NCBI GenBank assembly: GCA_019118885.1 | Contig: DWYB01000079.1 | Span: 48,947-112,946 of the forward strand | Length of the DNA: 64,000 nt | Source of the DNA: Candidatus Mediterraneibacter surreyensis | GTDB lineage: Bacteria > Bacillota > Clostridia > Lachnospirales > Lachnospiraceae | Direction: 5' to 3' | Position numbers and translations under genes: made by a program | Notes under the pieces: generated by a model | The model's database searches: none | The model's input: only the letters and a program-made list of their open reading frames with translations | What the model was told of the DNA's origin: nothing | Shown here: positions 4,679 through 14,074 of the stretch, in pieces | Numbering within the stretch: position 1 is the first letter of the stretch | Layout: each line of letters opens with the position of its first letter

Positions 4679-5233
4679 ATGGCAGGAGTTTTTAAACAGG
4701 CCGTACTGACGGCAAAAGGAATCGCTCTGCTGGCAAAAGCCCAGGCCGGGGAATGCACCATCAACCTGACGAAAGCCGCAGCCGGAAACGGCTCTTATTC
4801 AGACGGGGAGGCGCTCATCAACCGGACATCCCTGAAGGCACAGAAGCAGACGTTCCCACTTACCACAGTCACGACCCAGAATCAGACCAACGTGTATGTC
4901 AAATTTATCATGACAAACAAACAGGACAGCGGGAACCTGCAGAATGGCTACTACGTGAAAGAGGTCGGCATCTTTGCGAATGACCCAGACGATGGAGAAA
5001 TCCTCTACGCTATCGCTATCGCAGAGACGGATCAGTGGGATTATATGCCCGCATACAATGACCTACTTCCGTCCACCATTACCGTGGACTTCTTAACCGA
5101 GGTGGCAAATGCTGACGAGGTCGTGATCGAAACGCCAAACGAGACATATCTGTACGACCAGACAACAGGGCAGAAATACGTCCTGGGCGTTGACAACGGC
5201 TTACTTTATTTTGAGGAGGTAGAAGGAGCATGA
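4679..5233 (+). CDS. Tail-collar / fibre attachment protein
   Basis: 184 residues behind GAAGGAGG. The sequence 'VLTAKGIALLAKAQAGE' and 'NGYYVKEVGIFANDPDDGEI' are hallmarks of the DUF3751 tail-collar fibre N-terminal domain that attaches fibres to the baseplate. It is shorter than classical fibre proteins and stops where a receptor-binding shaft would begin. The next gene, overlapping by ATGA, is the DGR target, so this is probably the adaptor that carries the variable protein. That partnership is inferred from the overlap and order. Confidence 0.7.
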   Translation: MAGVFKQAVLTAKGIALLAKAQAGECTINLTKAAAGNGSYSDGEALINRTSLKAQKQTFPLTTVTTQNQTNVYVKFIMTNKQDSGNLQNGYYVKEVGIFANDPDDGEILYAIAIAETDQWDYMPAYNDLLPSTITVDFLTEVANADEVVIETPNETYLYDQTTGQKYVLGVDNGLLYFEEVEGA

Positions 5234-6495
5234 GCAGAATCTATGTAGCAGACAAAGAGACACTGGACAAGTGTTATAACATCCTGTCGGCAGACGGAAC
5301 CTATGGCTTTATTGAGCATTGCGCCATCTTAAGCCCGACAGAACGCATCGAGTACATCGGGATGAATGCGGACTACACGCCGCTGACCGTAAACAAAAGT
5401 ACCGGAGAAGCGTCACTTAATTCATGGGCAGATTTCCCGGTTATTCTCGGAAACAAACCTTGGATGGTAAAGAGCGATGGAACACCGGACTACAGACTGG
5501 ACGAAGACGACTACACCAAGAGAGAGGATGGGACGGCATCCGATGTGGCAAACACCAGCTACGATGGCGGTGCTTTCGCATGGATCCCCAAGATCTACAA
5601 ACAGGAGTACATGCTGGGGAACGACCGAGTGGTCAAATTCTCCATGAATAAAAAAGACGGCTTCGAAGCAGTGGGATTTATTGACGAAGACGGGAATGAG
5701 CTGGAGGGCGTATGGATCCCGATGTTTTACGGATCCATTGTAAGCGACAAGATGAAAAGCATTTCCGGCGTCCAGCCTGTCTACAGTAAAACTACGGCCC
5801 AGGAGAAGACGGCCATTGATGCATTCGGAACCAGGGCGAAGTTCTTCGGTGGGGCAATCGTGAACACGCTGACAGACCTGCTGATCATGTTCGGAAAGAG
5901 CGCCAATACCCAGGCAGTCTATGGAAACGGAAACATGAGTGGATACGATGCAGGCCTGGAGCCGACCATGGGCGTGAAGCAGAACGCCGTCATCGGAGGC
6001 GGCCAGTTCTATGGAACCAGCGATGGCAAGTCACTGAACAAGATCCTGCACTCCATTGTCCTCGGCTCATGGCAGCAGTGGATGCGTGACCCGTACACCC
6101 TGTTGGTAAACGGACGCTTCAAGGTAAGCAAGGATTACTCCTACGACCTTACCGGAGCTACGTATGAAGACACCGGGATCACACTCCCGAAGATCATGAC
6201 GGAAGATGACGAGCCGACCCAGAAGACAGGACCGTTCTATCCGCACAAATACCAGACGGTACCCGGCTTCGGAGCGCTCCCGGTTTACCCGTATAAAGGA
6301 AGCACTTCCACAGGCGGATGTGACGGATTATGGCAGAACGTGGAGATCACGGCTGTCGCCCGTCGGTTCGGCTATTGCGGCGTTGGCACGAATGTTGGGC
6401 TGCGGTGCTTGGCTGTGAGCGGCACCGCCGGGGATGCGAACTGGGGCATCGGCGCCGCCATTCTTCTCCTGCCTCCTGTCGGCGTAGCCGCATAG
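5230..6495 (+). CDS. DGR variable protein: tail receptor-binding candidate with C-type-lectin-like C-terminus
   Basis: 421 residues, overlapping the upstream fibre adaptor. The C-terminal part has the look of DGR targets with a formylglycine-enzyme/C-lectin-like fold: 'GGAFAWIPKIYKQEYM', a central loop region, 'GSWQQWMRDPYTLLVNGRF' and the variable repeat at residues 375-410. Compared with the template repeat, residues Y382, G384, V385, V389, C393, A395, S397, G398, D402 and G406 differ through changes at template adenines, and R378 through a T-to-G change. The conserved W405 and the GT, GL, AG framework are unchanged. The protein ends 11 residues after the repeat. Its location in the tail operon implies host-receptor recognition. 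Confidence 0.85.
   Translation: MSRIYVADKETLDKCYNILSADGTYGFIEHCAILSPTERIEYIGMNADYTPLTVNKSTGEASLNSWADFPVILGNKPWMVKSDGTPDYRLDEDDYTKREDGTASDVANTSYDGGAFAWIPKIYKQEYMLGNDRVVKFSMNKKDGFEAVGFIDEDGNELEGVWIPMFYGSIVSDKMKSISGVQPVYSKTTAQEKTAIDAFGTRAKFFGGAIVNTLTDLLIMFGKSANTQAVYGNGNMSGYDAGLEPTMGVKQNAVIGGGQFYGTSDGKSLNKILHSIVLGSWQQWMRDPYTLLVNGRFKVSKDYSYDLTGATYEDTGITLPKIMTEDDEPTQKTGPFYPHKYQTVPGFGALPVYPYKGSTSTGGCDGLWQNVEITAVARRFGYCGVGTNVGLRCLAVSGTAGDANWGIGAAILLLPPVGVAA
6351..6459 (+). repeat. DGR variable repeat (VR)
   Basis: 109 nt forming codons 375-410 of the target gene. Aligned gaplessly to 6595-6703 it shows 15 changes at template A (to G, T or C) and one T-to-G change at 6362. The last 13 nt (CATCGGCGCCGCC) are identical to the template and GC-rich, as expected of the initiation-of-mutagenic-homing segment. 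Confidence 0.93.
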
Positions 6496-6500
6496 GGGGT

Positions 6501-6532
6501 CTGGGGGCGTGGCAAAGCCACGATTCCCCCAG
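6501..6532. promoter_or_regulatory. DGR hairpin/cruciform downstream of VR
   Basis: Six bases after the target gene stop, CTGGGGG (6501-6507) pairs with CCCCCAG (6526-6532) and CGTGGC (6508-6513) pairs with GCCACG (6517-6522), with loop AAA and a 3-nt bulge ATT. DGRs such as that of phage BPP-1 need an inverted repeat at this place for efficient mutagenic homing. There is no T-run, so an intrinsic terminator is less likely. Confidence 0.75.
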
Positions 6533-6594
6533 GAGAAAAGTAACGGATTCCACAGCGTAAAAATTTAACAGGGGAGCGGGGCGGTGCCTTTAGG

Positions 6595-6703
6595 GGCTGT
6601 CGCCCTTCGGTTCGGCAATTGCAACAATGGCACGAATGATGGGCTGCGGTACTTGAATGTGAACAACACCGCCGGGAATGCGAACTGGAACATCGGCGCC
6701 GCC
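6595..6703 (+). repeat. DGR template repeat (TR)
   Basis: 109 nt with 25 adenines, 15 of which are replaced in the VR. Read in the target frame it encodes asparagine-rich AAY codons at the diversified places. It lies in a 404-nt stretch without a gene (6496-6899). After it, the frame continues 'LFYLNMEY' and stops, unlike the present target end. The stretch 6704-6899 up to the RT start includes a small GCCTT/AAGGC stem (about 6761-6776) and is the probable spacer RNA from which template-primed cDNA is made. Confidence 0.93.
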
Positions 6704-6899
6704 TTATTCTATCTAAACATGGAATATTAACCAAAGCCGTCCCGCTTCATTTACACCGCTGGCCTTTGAAATAAGGCTTACTCGCCATTACTGGAAAGAT
6801 GAGTGGAAATAAATCCGATACAGGGCGCATGGTAAAGCGGTCGCACCTACCATACGTAGGAGATAGAAGAAAAAATATCTTATAGGAGTACTCGGAAAA

Positions 6900-8135
6900 A
6901 TGAGACGAAAAGCAGTTGACCTCCTATTGCGGAAGGCAGATATGAGAGACACGGGAGGCCACAAAGAGTACAAATATCTGTATCAGCGCATGCTGGACGA
7001 AGAAGTCATTCGGAAAGCATACAAGAAATTACGCAAAGGGAAGACCAAAAGAAACGAGATAATTTATATCGATGCACATCTGGACGAGGAAGTCCAGAAG
7101 ATGCACGACATGATCCTGAACACCAAGCCGCCGGACGTACCCGTGGAACACCCGGAACTGGCGTATCGCCCGCACAGGCGGACACCAAAGATCATATTTG
7201 AACACGGGAAGCACCGGAAGATTTATATGCCGGAGATCCATGAGCAATGGCTCCACCACATCATTGTTCTGATTTTGGAGCCGATCATCACAGCTACCGC
7301 ATACCCATATTCCTGCGGATCATTCCCTAAGAGGGGAGCGCACTACGGGAAGCGGCAGATCGAGCGCTGGATCCGGCGATGCCAGAAGGACATGAGATAC
7401 TTCGCCAAGATGGACATCCGGCATTTTTACGACAACATCCGGCTAAAAATCCTGATGAGGGAACTGCGGATCCGCATCAAAGATGAATGGTTCCTTTACA
7501 TCATCGAATTGTGCCTGCAGGGGTTTTCAAAAGGCGTACCATTGGGATTTTACATTAGCCAGTGGCTGGCCAATTATCTCCTGGAGCCATTGGATCGGTT
7601 CATCACGGAGAAGCTGGGATTGAAGATCATGATGCGCTACATGGACGACATCACGATCTATGCAGCTAATAAGAAAGTGCTGCACCAGGCAATCGCCTTG
7701 ATCAAGCAGTACATCGGGCAAAGGTTCCGGCTGAAACTGAAACGGACCCACCAGGTATGCAGGTTTCACTTCCAGAAGGGCAAGAGAGTCATCGGGAGAG
7801 CGCTGGATTTTATGGGTTTTGTATTCTATCGGAACCGGACAGTGATCCGCAAAGGCACCATGCTCTCAGCGACCAGGACGGCGAGGAAGCTGCACCGGGC
7901 AAAGGAAGCGGGGCGGGGATATTTCGTAAAGCACATGGAAGCCATGCTCAGTTACATGGGATGGTTTACCTGCACGAATTCCTACGGGTGCTACGAGGAA
8001 AGAATCAAGCCGTTTGTTTCAATCGGCAGGATCAAGAAAATCATTTCAAAAATCAAAAGGAGGCAGAACCATGAAGGCATGGACAGTGGAGCGGTGCGAA
8101 AAAAAGCCGCAGGAATTACAGCTTGTGTCGCCTGA
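6900..8135 (+). CDS. DGR reverse transcriptase
   Basis: 411 residues, full length for the family. Motif A 'AKMDIRHFYDNI' gives catalytic Asp172; motif C YMDD lies at 247-250; the segment LGFYISQ at 215-221 fits the [ILV]GxxxSQ motif that replaces QGxxxSP in DGR enzymes. There is no integrase, endonuclease or maturase domain; the C-terminus is basic. It copies the template RNA with errors at adenine and supplies cDNA for replacement of the VR. The ATG has TAGGAG about 11 bases upstream. Its 3' end overlaps the next small phage gene by 65 bases. Confidence 0.93.
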   Translation: MRRKAVDLLLRKADMRDTGGHKEYKYLYQRMLDEEVIRKAYKKLRKGKTKRNEIIYIDAHLDEEVQKMHDMILNTKPPDVPVEHPELAYRPHRRTPKIIFEHGKHRKIYMPEIHEQWLHHIIVLILEPIITATAYPYSCGSFPKRGAHYGKRQIERWIRRCQKDMRYFAKMDIRHFYDNIRLKILMRELRIRIKDEWFLYIIELCLQGFSKGVPLGFYISQWLANYLLEPLDRFITEKLGLKIMMRYMDDITIYAANKKVLHQAIALIKQYIGQRFRLKLKRTHQVCRFHFQKGKRVIGRALDFMGFVFYRNRTVIRKGTMLSATRTARKLHRAKEAGRGYFVKHMEAMLSYMGWFTCTNSYGCYEERIKPFVSIGRIKKIISKIKRRQNHEGMDSGAVRKKAAGITACVA

Positions 8136-8334
8136 CACCTACATCCAGAGGAAAGACATCAAAAAGGTGGACCACGAAGCGACAGAAGATATGCCGGCCT
8201 ATACAGACTATGAGTGCATGAGCCGGGAGATCACGGTATCGGAATACCAGATGCTGGAAAGTATCACGCAAATCAGCAACGAAAAGGCAATTGACGAGTA
8301 CACGCTGCAGCTTATTGAGGAAGGGGTGCTTTAA
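8071..8334 (+). CDS. Small phage tail-region protein, unknown
   Basis: 87 residues, starting at ATG 8071 behind AAAAGGAGGCAGAACC, inside the end of the RT gene in another frame. The text 'TVERCEKKPQELQLVSPDTY' and 'ITVSEYQMLESITQI' is not a family I can name. Proteins of this size often sit just before the XkdX gene in Firmicute tail operons. The strong ribosome binding site and the direct succession of XkdX support that it is real. Confidence 0.65.
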   Translation: MKAWTVERCEKKPQELQLVSPDTYIQRKDIKKVDHEATEDMPAYTDYECMSREITVSEYQMLESITQISNEKAIDEYTLQLIEEGVL

Positions 8335-8335
8335 T

Positions 8336-8476
8336 ATGTCGATTTTAGTGAACAGTTTAACCAGGCTCTATGAATCGGGCAGACTCACAAAAGAACAGAT
8401 CAAAGAGCGGGTAGAGAAAGGATCCATCAATGAGGAGGAGTACCAGGAGATCACAGGAGAAGCATACGAGTCCTGA
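8336..8476 (+). CDS. XkdX-family phage protein
   Basis: 46 residues. 'LTRLYESGRLTKEQIKERV' followed by 'G.I...EY.EITGEAY' is the XkdX signature, a very short protein encoded after tail-fibre genes in many Bacillus and Clostridia phages; its function is unknown. It begins two bases after the previous stop, with AAGGGG about 10 bases upstream. Confidence 0.85.
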   Translation: MSILVNSLTRLYESGRLTKEQIKERVEKGSINEEEYQEITGEAYES

Positions 8477-12459: not shown

Positions 12460-12543
12460 TCCTATTTTATAAAAAGAAAGTTATTGAATTTTATAACAAG
12501 AACACCGATAATCATAAGTACCAAAACAAGGGAGGAAGCAGGG

Positions 12544-13590
12544 ATGGGACACATTTTTTCACATGTGACACGTTCAGACAGGATTACAATAGAAGCCATG
12601 CTAAAGGCGGGAAGCAGCCGTAAAGAAATCGCAGAGAAGATCGGGGTACATATCAGCACGATTTACCGGGAGGAAAAGAGAGGTCGCTACATCCACACAA
12701 ACAGCGACCTGACTGAGGAGGAAAGGTATTCCCCGGACATCGCAGACGAAAAATACCGGGAGAACCTGAAAGCAAAGGGACCAGACCTCAAGATCGGAAA
12801 AGACCACAAGCTGGCAGAGTACATAGAAGACAAGATCGTGAACGAGGACTACAGCCCCGGAGCTGTCCTCGGAGAGATTAAGCAAAAGGGAATTCAGTTT
12901 GATACCACGATCAGCAAGACCACATTATACAGCTATATCGACAAGGACGTCTTCGCCGGGATTACGAACAAAGACCTCCCGGTTAAAGGAACCAGAAGAA
13001 AGAAGAATAAAAAGGTCAGAAAGACCCAGTCAAGAAAGGCGGCAGGGGACAGTATCGAGAAACGTCCGGAGGAGATCCAGAGCCGGGAAGAATTCGGGCA
13101 CTGGGAGATGGATACCGTGGTCGGCAAGAAAGGCGAGAGCAAACATAGCCTCCTGGTGCTGACAGAGAGGAAAACCAGGGAAGAGATCATCGTTCTGCTC
13201 TACGAACACACCATGGAAATGGTAGTCAAGGCGCTGGATAACCTGGAAGAAAAGTGGGGATCCTTATTCCCTCAGATTTTTAAGACCATTACTGTGGACA
13301 ATGGCTCAGAGTTTTCAGACTGCAAGGGGATTGAAAAATCAACGATCGGGGAGGGCAGCAGGACAAAGGTCTACTACTGCCACCCATACAGTAGCTGGGA
13401 ACGTGGAAGCAACGAGGTCACAAACCGGATGGTGCGCCGCAAGGTGCCGAAGGGAACAAACTTCGATGATCGGACAGAGGAAGACATCCAAGAAGTGGAG
13501 AACTGGATCAACAACTACCCCAGGGAACTGTTCGACTACGAGACAGCCCAGATGCAGTTTGACAGGGAACTGGAACTTCTGGTAGCATAG
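12544..13590 (+). CDS. IS30-family transposase
   Basis: 348 residues from ATG 12544, behind AGGGAGGAAGCAGGG. N-terminal HTH: 'LKAGSSRKEIAEKIGVHIST' with 'IYREEKRGRY', the hallmark of IS30 enzymes. The DDE catalytic core shows 'HWEMDTVVGKKGESKHSLLV' (first Asp), 'TITVDNGSEFSD' (second Asp) and 'YYCHPYSSWERGSNEV' (Glu). The reading frame is intact and could be active. I found no convincing terminal inverted repeats on either side, so whether this is a complete insertion sequence or a single captured gene is open. Confidence 0.9.
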   Translation: MGHIFSHVTRSDRITIEAMLKAGSSRKEIAEKIGVHISTIYREEKRGRYIHTNSDLTEEERYSPDIADEKYRENLKAKGPDLKIGKDHKLAEYIEDKIVNEDYSPGAVLGEIKQKGIQFDTTISKTTLYSYIDKDVFAGITNKDLPVKGTRRKKNKKVRKTQSRKAAGDSIEKRPEEIQSREEFGHWEMDTVVGKKGESKHSLLVLTERKTREEIIVLLYEHTMEMVVKALDNLEEKWGSLFPQIFKTITVDNGSEFSDCKGIEKSTIGEGSRTKVYYCHPYSSWERGSNEVTNRMVRRKVPKGTNFDDRTEEDIQEVENWINNYPRELFDYETAQMQFDRELELLVA

Positions 13591-13762
13591 GGGGACAGAA
13601 AATAGAACAGAGCAAAGCAGGAAAGAAAATGGGACGTATCTGTCTATTTTTCACAAAACGAAACAGGGAGCATTGTGCAAAACAATGAAGTGAAGTTTTG
13701 CAATAAATTTTTTGCATTTAATGCTTGACTTTTTGCTTTTAAGAATTTTAAACCAGAAAATA

Positions 13763-13791
13763 TTGACATACCCCGGGAAATATGGTATTTT
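13763..13791 (+). promoter_or_regulatory. Promoter of the tRNA pair
   Basis: -35 TTGACA (13763-13768), 17-nt spacer, -10 TATTTT (13786-13791), ending 30 bases before tRNA-Ala. The -35 is a perfect consensus hexamer. Confidence 0.75.
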
Positions 13792-13821
13792 ATAAAAGTT
13801 CTTATAAGAACACATTTTCCT

Positions 13822-13894
13822 GGGGGATTAGCTCAGTTGGGAGAGCGCCTGCCTTGCAAGCAGGAGGTCACGAGTTCGACTCTCGTATTCTCCA
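13822..13894 (+). tRNA. tRNA-Ala (anticodon TGC)
   Basis: 73 nt. Acceptor stem GGGGGAT pairs with ATTCTCC (two G-T pairs), D-arm AGCTCAGTTGGGAGAGC, anticodon stem CCTGC/GCAGG enclosing CTTGCAA, T-arm GAGTTCGACTC. CCA is not encoded. Confidence 0.97.
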
Positions 13895-13912
13895 TTCGGC
13901 TATAAGCGCTGC

Positions 13913-13972
13913 GGATAAAGGCAAATGAAAGACTATTTATTTGTGTAAATAGCTTTTCATTTGTCTTTATCC
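13913..13972. other. Long hairpin between the two tRNA genes
   Basis: GGATAAAG (13913-13920) pairs with CTTTATCC (13965-13972). Inside, CAAATGAAA pairs with TTTCATTTG and CTATTTA with TAAATAG around a short loop, giving a nearly continuous ~26-bp stem. It has no T-run. It could be an RNA-processing signal in the tRNA transcript or a small palindromic repeat. Confidence 0.6.
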
Positions 13973-14001
13973 ATAGGGCGGAAGCTGTAATTAAATAATG
14001 G

Positions 14002-14074
14002 TCCTCCTTAGCTCAGTCGGTAGAGCATTCGGCTGTTAACCGAAGTGTCGTTGGTTCAAGTCCAACAGGGGGAG
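14002..14074 (+). tRNA. tRNA-Asn (anticodon GTT)
   Basis: 73 nt. Acceptor TCCTCCT/AGGGGGA, D-arm AGCTCAGTCGGTAGAGC, anticodon stem TTCGG/CCGAA around CTGTTAA, T-arm GTTGGTTCAAGTCCAAC. CCA is not encoded. It is transcribed with tRNA-Ala. Confidence 0.97.

Follow-up and report, generated by a model that had tools for sequence, protein, structure and literature searches.

Can a diversity-generating retroelement (DGR) rewrite its target gene without the accessory protein Avd? This question is raised by a prophage of Candidatus Mediterraneibacter surreyensis, the right end of which occupies the first 11 kb of the stretch analysed here (contig DWYB01000079.1, positions 48,947 to 112,946; these 64,000 nucleotides are referred to as the window). 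Very probably the element is an Avd-less DGR of the lineage of the Faecalibacterium phage FP_Epona (MG711462) and works as proposed below. This reading draws on the anatomy of the cassette, its adenine specificity across the lineage, differences confined to the variable repeat (VR), a conserved RNA structure and the lack of a detectable Avd. All cassette features described below, and the XkdX gene behind them, are on the + strand.

Template and variable repeats

The VR (6351-6459) and the template repeat (TR, 6595-6703) are 109 nucleotides long and align over this whole length without gaps and with 16 mismatches. Fifteen of these fall on adenines of the TR, which has 25 (11 A>G, 3 A>T and 1 A>C); the sixteenth is a T>G exchange (TR 6606, VR 6362). 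Given 16 mismatches, the hypergeometric probability that at least 15 meet the 25 adenines by chance is 4.6e-11. In the reading frame of the VR each of the 25 TR adenines corresponds to the first or second base of a codon. The mismatches affect 11 codons, all 11 of which code for another amino acid. The VR is located at the 3' end of the target gene (5230-6495), which codes for a tail protein of 421 amino acids (phrog_5302 'tail protein', E 9.5e-91); another 36 bases of coding sequence follow the VR. Only the known VR and TR were matched in the source genome, which is available as an assembly of 90 contigs with a completeness of 90.33%; a second VR was not found there. A preliminary description of this DNA had reported a complete DGR in a prophage, with ungapped repeats at these coordinates and no silent change among the adenine-linked mismatches. 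Our analysis confirmed this; TR, VR, RT (reverse transcriptase) and target are all present.

RT-seeded scans yielded 55 viral and 23 genome loci, that is, 79 sequences counting the window. A TR/VR pair was identified in 69 of them, leaving 58 distinct pairs once 11 duplicates had been removed; in the other ten the repeats are cut off because the RT match begins at most 557 bases from the start of the locus. The 58 pairs together show 786 differences, of which 743 are situated at a template adenine (720 of 748 within the TR core). In these pairs the identity of TR and VR has sharp borders at 6595 and 6703, and the 3' ends, positions 6694-6703, do not differ in a single pair. These unchanging ends may be the sites of initiation of mutagenic homing (IMH in the VR, IMH* in the TR).

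Elements differing by at most 0.2% outside VR and TR were then compared, using the listed pairs that passed a BLAST filter. Three elements from separate contigs (L024, L025 and L026) differ pairwise by 14, 13 and 9 nucleotides in the VR, every one at a TR adenine, and are identical in the TR (0 of 110 differences) as well as elsewhere (0 of 2,459). Likewise, L061 and L062 show 20 differences in the VR, 18 of them at TR adenines, and none in 2,420 positions elsewhere. In 11 hand-picked pairs from seven groups, 144 of 158 VR differences are at TR adenines, and among the 32 listed near-identical pairs the VR differs in 18. Since L024, L025 and L026 differ only in the VR and always at template adenines, the lineage has been active, to judge from these sequences. 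What can be seen of mutagenic retrohoming are its traces, namely VR-only differences between elements that are otherwise identical. As counter-evidence to a DGR the preliminary description had named a VR identical in all related prophages, or differences not tied to template adenines; the relatives were found to vary in the VR, and at template adenines.

Reverse transcriptase, spacer RNA and Avd

The RT gene (6900-8135) codes for 411 amino acids and matches RVT_1 and phrog_1423 (E 3e-97). Both YMDD and LGFYISQ, the latter presumably the DGR form of this RT motif, are contained in the translation as the preliminary description had stated, and the family matches agree; it is on family matches and motifs that the assignment to the DGR clade is based. 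The nearest solved relative by sequence is 8ub7_A, 'Reverse transcriptase' (328 amino acids, E 1.8e-15), and no second RT of this kind was found in the source genome at E 0.001. In NCBIfam, however, the best match of the RT is group_II_RT_mat (104.6 bits), followed by Drt3a and a retron RT. This could point to an RT of group II intron, antiviral or retron origin lying next to an ordinary duplication that has drifted. We give this explanation practically no credence. The NCBIfam scores fall well short of the curated cut-offs (300, 200 and 235 bits), both phrog_1423 and the best solved relative are in keeping with an RT of the DGR type, and drift would neither place the differences at template adenines in the proportion given above nor leave elements identical outside the VR and different inside it.

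The interval between TR and RT comprises 196 bases and is conserved in sequence. We assign its 6704-6869 part to the spacer RNA of the template transcript. Within it, 6752-6868 matches the Rfam family RF03025 'RT-4 RNA' over the complete model (1-118 of 118) with 125.7 bits and E 9.3e-23, exceeding the gathering score of 73.5 bits. This was the only Rfam match in 6300-7000 at E up to 1; RF03022 (Phage_DGR) did not match the spacer. A structure of 28 pairs was evaluated on 34 sequences: 95.8% of the cells are paired and 17 pairs have changed on both sides, whereas slid versions reached at most 43.3% and none of 500 shuffles came as high, figures that favour the structure because it was derived from the alignment on which it was tested, with three pairs added by hand to the closing helix. 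As double changes are lacking in this closing helix (6707-6713 with 6862-6868), the helix is backed by conservation only.

RT-4 is present in 18 of 20 chosen relatives, and the two distant ones, L078 and L079, carry RF03021 'RT-18' in the same place. In 299 genomes of the family RT-4 was detected in six (one below the gathering score), and each of these genomes also holds an RT and a TR/VR pair. Among a further 20 loci, Rfam matches above threshold were RT-4 in L152, RT-18 in L083, L085, L157, L172 and L216, and Phage_DGR in L217. The remaining 13 loci of this set (L084, L097, L153, L170, L171, L195, L202 and L218-L223) gave no match to an RT-n family or Phage_DGR above threshold; some DGRs therefore fall outside the RT-n families. 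It should be added that L097 has no RT, that L170, L195 and L202 reach hardly or not at all upstream of the RT, and that matches below threshold were obtained in L170, L171 and L222.

The best point of comparison is the Bordetella phage BPP-1. As in the window, transfer from TR to VR is adenine-specific, the VR is located at the 3' end of a tail gene, a stem–loop follows the VR and a structured spacer separates TR and RT. In BPP-1 the stretch from TR to brt belongs to RF03022 ('Bacteriophage Diversity-Generating Retroelement RNA') instead of RF03025; according to a paper of 2026 this spacer folds to recruit bRT-Avd and carries the priming adenine (PMC12875486). RT-4 and RT-18 occupy the slot of RF03022 and are therefore read as DGR spacer RNAs. 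By analogy, we read RT-4 as the part of the template RNA that would recruit and prime in this lineage. In the Rfam output RF03025 is named only 'RT-4 RNA', without a stated function, and a literature search by name, the coverage of which did not extend to the founding paper (Weinberg et al. 2017), yielded no function for RT-4 and only a mention of 'RT-3 RNA'. RT-4, and by position RT-18, thereby gains a testable function as structured 3' part of DGR template RNAs.

The counterpart of the BPP-1 stem–loop that promotes target use is a hairpin at 6500-6533, just 3' of the stop codon of the target gene and downstream of the VR (fold of 6480-6545: -28.1 kcal/mol). When only perfect inverted repeats with a stem of at least 7 are counted, 13 of 47 distinct VR-TR intervals have one after the VR. 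If the pattern is relaxed to GGGG and CCCC separated by 3-40 bases, the number rises to 45 of the 47, compared with 5% of shuffles that kept base composition but not dinucleotides.

Unlike the window, BPP-1 carries an avd gene, which it requires, between target and TR (PMC12875486). The preliminary description had noticed no avd at its usual place, and this proved right beyond that place: bAvd (PF22296) was not detected in the source genome as assembled (90.33% complete), while the positive control BPP-1 was recognized with E 2.2e-37. Nor was bAvd detected in 16 other records including FP_Epona, several of which are fragments. Avd does not define all DGRs, as Epona and other phages have been described as carrying DGRs without it (PMC5883640). 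Cornuault et al. (2018) reported the Avd-less DGR of FP_Epona, found homologues of Avd in Mushu and Lagaffe alone and suggested another small protein in other phages; the accessible portion of the paper makes no mention of a spacer RNA (PMC5883640).

FP_Epona is the closest known system. The order of target, TR, RT, small gene and XkdX is the same, RT-4 is present, Avd was not detected, all 13 differences of its TR/VR pair are at adenines, and the tail is contractile (Myoviridae in the table of PMC5883640). The phage and its host are different, and about one third of the sequence differs (identity 66.6% for the RT, 64.0% for the target and 60.9% for the small gene product S87). The kind of cassette is consequently already known and the window provides a further example of it. 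What is added here is the reading of RT-4, and by position RT-18, as DGR spacer RNA, and VR-only change in an Avd-less lineage. Such a lineage is a natural case for studying how a DGR can work without the accessory protein that BPP-1 needs.

With RNA–RT binding, priming site, retrohoming and receptor binding modelled on BPP-1, we propose the following course of events. The transcript of TR and spacer would fold, with the RT-4 structure directly 3' of the template. The RT would bind this structure, and cDNA synthesis would start near the end of the TR, close to 6703. Adenines would be misread while the TR is copied, so that the changes carried by the cDNA fall mostly on the first two positions of codons. 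This cDNA would then replace the VR, helped by the unchanging GC-rich end common to TR and VR and by the hairpin after the VR. The product would be a tail protein whose scaffold stays constant while certain residues vary, by which the phage population could try many surface ligands.

Target protein and state of the element

No Pfam family was matched by the 421-amino-acid target at E 0.1. Its AlphaFold model, based on 27 sequences, has a mean predicted local distance difference test score (pLDDT) of 83.0, with low confidence in part of the VR. The best Foldseek match of the model is TaqVP of Thermus aquaticus (5vf4; E 4.8e-10, probability 1.00), followed by chains of BPP-1 Mtd with E near 1. 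TaqVP is a DGR target with a lectin fold and exposed variable residues, although its cassette has avd, unlike that of the window (PMC6328139). The match suggests a lectin-like fold for the C-terminal part of the model, at a template modelling (TM) score of 0.44 and with the VR partly of low confidence. By analogy with BPP-1 the target may bind a receptor.

Several points weigh against a DGR that works in the proposed way. The TaqVP match is modest (TM 0.44 as given, root-mean-square deviation 9.5, identity 16%), and a profile search of solved sequences with the target gave nothing at E 0.01. Of the TR/VR differences in the 58 distinct pairs, 43 of 786 are off the template adenines. The VR is identical in 14 of the 32 listed near-identical pairs, several of which look like one phage or host sequenced twice. 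The nearest relative of the window (L057, Eubacteriaceae bacterium CHKCI004) differs by 5.75% outside VR and TR, and only 11 of the 16 VR differences between the two are at TR adenines of L057. The element is known from its sequence, and the signs of activity come from its relatives and not from the window's own copy.

This last point, together with the T>G difference in the TR/VR pair, would fit a cassette that is genuine but has decayed and no longer works in this prophage. The RT frame, however, is open and contains YMDD, and TR, RT-4 (at the score given above), hairpin and target frame are intact; furthermore the RT is 96% identical to that of L057 while the VRs of both differ. We therefore consider decay very unlikely and retain the reading of an Avd-less DGR that works.

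The small gene S87 and the surroundings

The target had been described as the last structural gene of the tail operon. This does not hold: the tail module goes on behind the RT with a conserved small gene (8071-8334) and XkdX (8336-8476; PF09693 E 4.2e-12, TIGR01669), a general tail-module gene 3' of the cassette. The small gene overlaps the 3' end of the RT gene with its start and codes for S87, a protein of 87 amino acids that belongs to phrog_20201 (function unassigned). Neither S87 nor its Epona relative matched a Pfam family at E 0.1, in contrast to BPP-1 Avd (PF22296, 123.4 bits). S87 is probably a tail gene that travels with this target.

Alternatively, S87 might replace Avd and work with RT and RT-4 RNA, which would be compatible with the DGR. 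Its linkage to the RT argues for such a partnership. S87 is present in 75 of 78 RT loci; of the others, L055 ends inside the RT, and in L078 and L079 tblastn found none, although an open reading frame of 100 amino acids after the RT of L079 matches phrog_20201 at 2.4e-5. When loci were seeded with S87 (the best 80 of 90 viral loci and six genome loci including the window, many contigs being shared with the RT-seeded set), the RT was beside it in 85 of 86. In 391 genomes of the class phrog_20201 occurs in four, each time adjoined by a DGR-like RT. The six family genomes with RT-4 are the same that hold S87, and among the named phages of the collection, relatives of S87 are confined to records that bear a DGR. 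XkdX, used as control, is present in 34 of the 391 class genomes, and 30 of its 39 matched places were taken as loci. Four of these match the S87 profile and all four have an RT (one being the window, another a weak match of 4.6e-5), two have an RT-like gene without S87, and 24 have neither. Moreover, another small protein was proposed for the Avd-less phages by Cornuault et al. (PMC5883640).

Other observations are at odds with a partner of the RT. In L097 (690-1000) TR, spacer RNA and RT are gone between the hairpin and S87, while target, hairpin, S87 and XkdX have been kept; the S87 frame is intact and the sequence is 97% identical to L024 downstream. In seven of the 24 XkdX loci without RT, which were inspected, other small proteins of about 105-135 amino acids fill the slot before XkdX, some with a C-terminal end that looks similar by eye. 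An RT-like gene without an S87 match is present in L185 and L186, and the S87 profile, being built from RT-linked loci, favours the finding of RT-linked ones. Avd is a four-helix bundle. The S87 model has four strands and one helix (pLDDT 81.9, predicted TM score 0.54), and no solved relative was found at E 0.001. On balance we regard a replacement of Avd by S87 as unlikely. Equally doubtful is a distinct Avd-independent architecture in which RT-4 RNA and S87 recruit and prime as Avd and Phage_DGR RNA do in BPP-1.

In BPP-1 and four other DGR-type RT loci, too, the RT gene is overlapped at its 3' end by a small gene. These genes are situated at 1527-1775 in L217, 2495-2842 in L218, 2489-2776 in L219, 2525-2953 in L223 and 1840-2250 in L085; those of L218, L219 and L223 did not match a Pfam family at E 0.1.

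Some minor observations concern the exchanges themselves. Among the adenine changes A>C accounts for 41% where a T follows, 29% where a C follows and 15% where an A follows. The strong A>C bias before C that has been described for BPP-1 in E. coli (PMC12875486) does not reappear in the pairs of this lineage, a comparison that is confounded by selection on the protein. Among the differences that are not at adenines T>G leads, with 16 of 28 in the TR core. In near-identical elements eight of ten polarised non-adenine events, by a count collapsed by hand, are T>G in the VR, and in six of the 58 pairs T>G hits the T of 6606. An occasional misinsertion of C opposite template U by the RT might account for this. 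At TR column 6632, 12 of the 58 TRs have an adenine which is unchanged in every VR, whereas neighbouring template adenines change in about half; selection on that residue is possible.

Two of the loci have an RT match in pieces (L049, 3501-4678; L050, 557-1734). Residues 93-411 are in one frame but the span is not a multiple of three, and the RT of both therefore looks frameshifted. A weak repeat pair 3' of the RT in L050, with 9 of 22 differences at adenines, was under the score threshold and was left out of the pair counts.

The cassette is preceded in the window by baseplate genes and a collar-fibre protein of 184 amino acids, and XkdX is followed by holin and endolysin. On the same contig 5' of the window there are genes for terminase, portal, capsid, tail sheath, tail tube and a tape-measure-type protein. 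The tail sheath (phrog_23, E 7.6e-64) bears out the contractile tail of the preliminary description; the tail tube protein is Phage_tube according to Pfam and 'head closure' according to PHROGs. From about 14.4 kb of the window on, the genes are of host type as read off their translations. Between these and the end of the prophage, a transposase-like gene (by its look) and two tRNA genes (13822-13894 and 14002-14074) are located in a region, 12484-14074, which is possibly the attachment region of the prophage.

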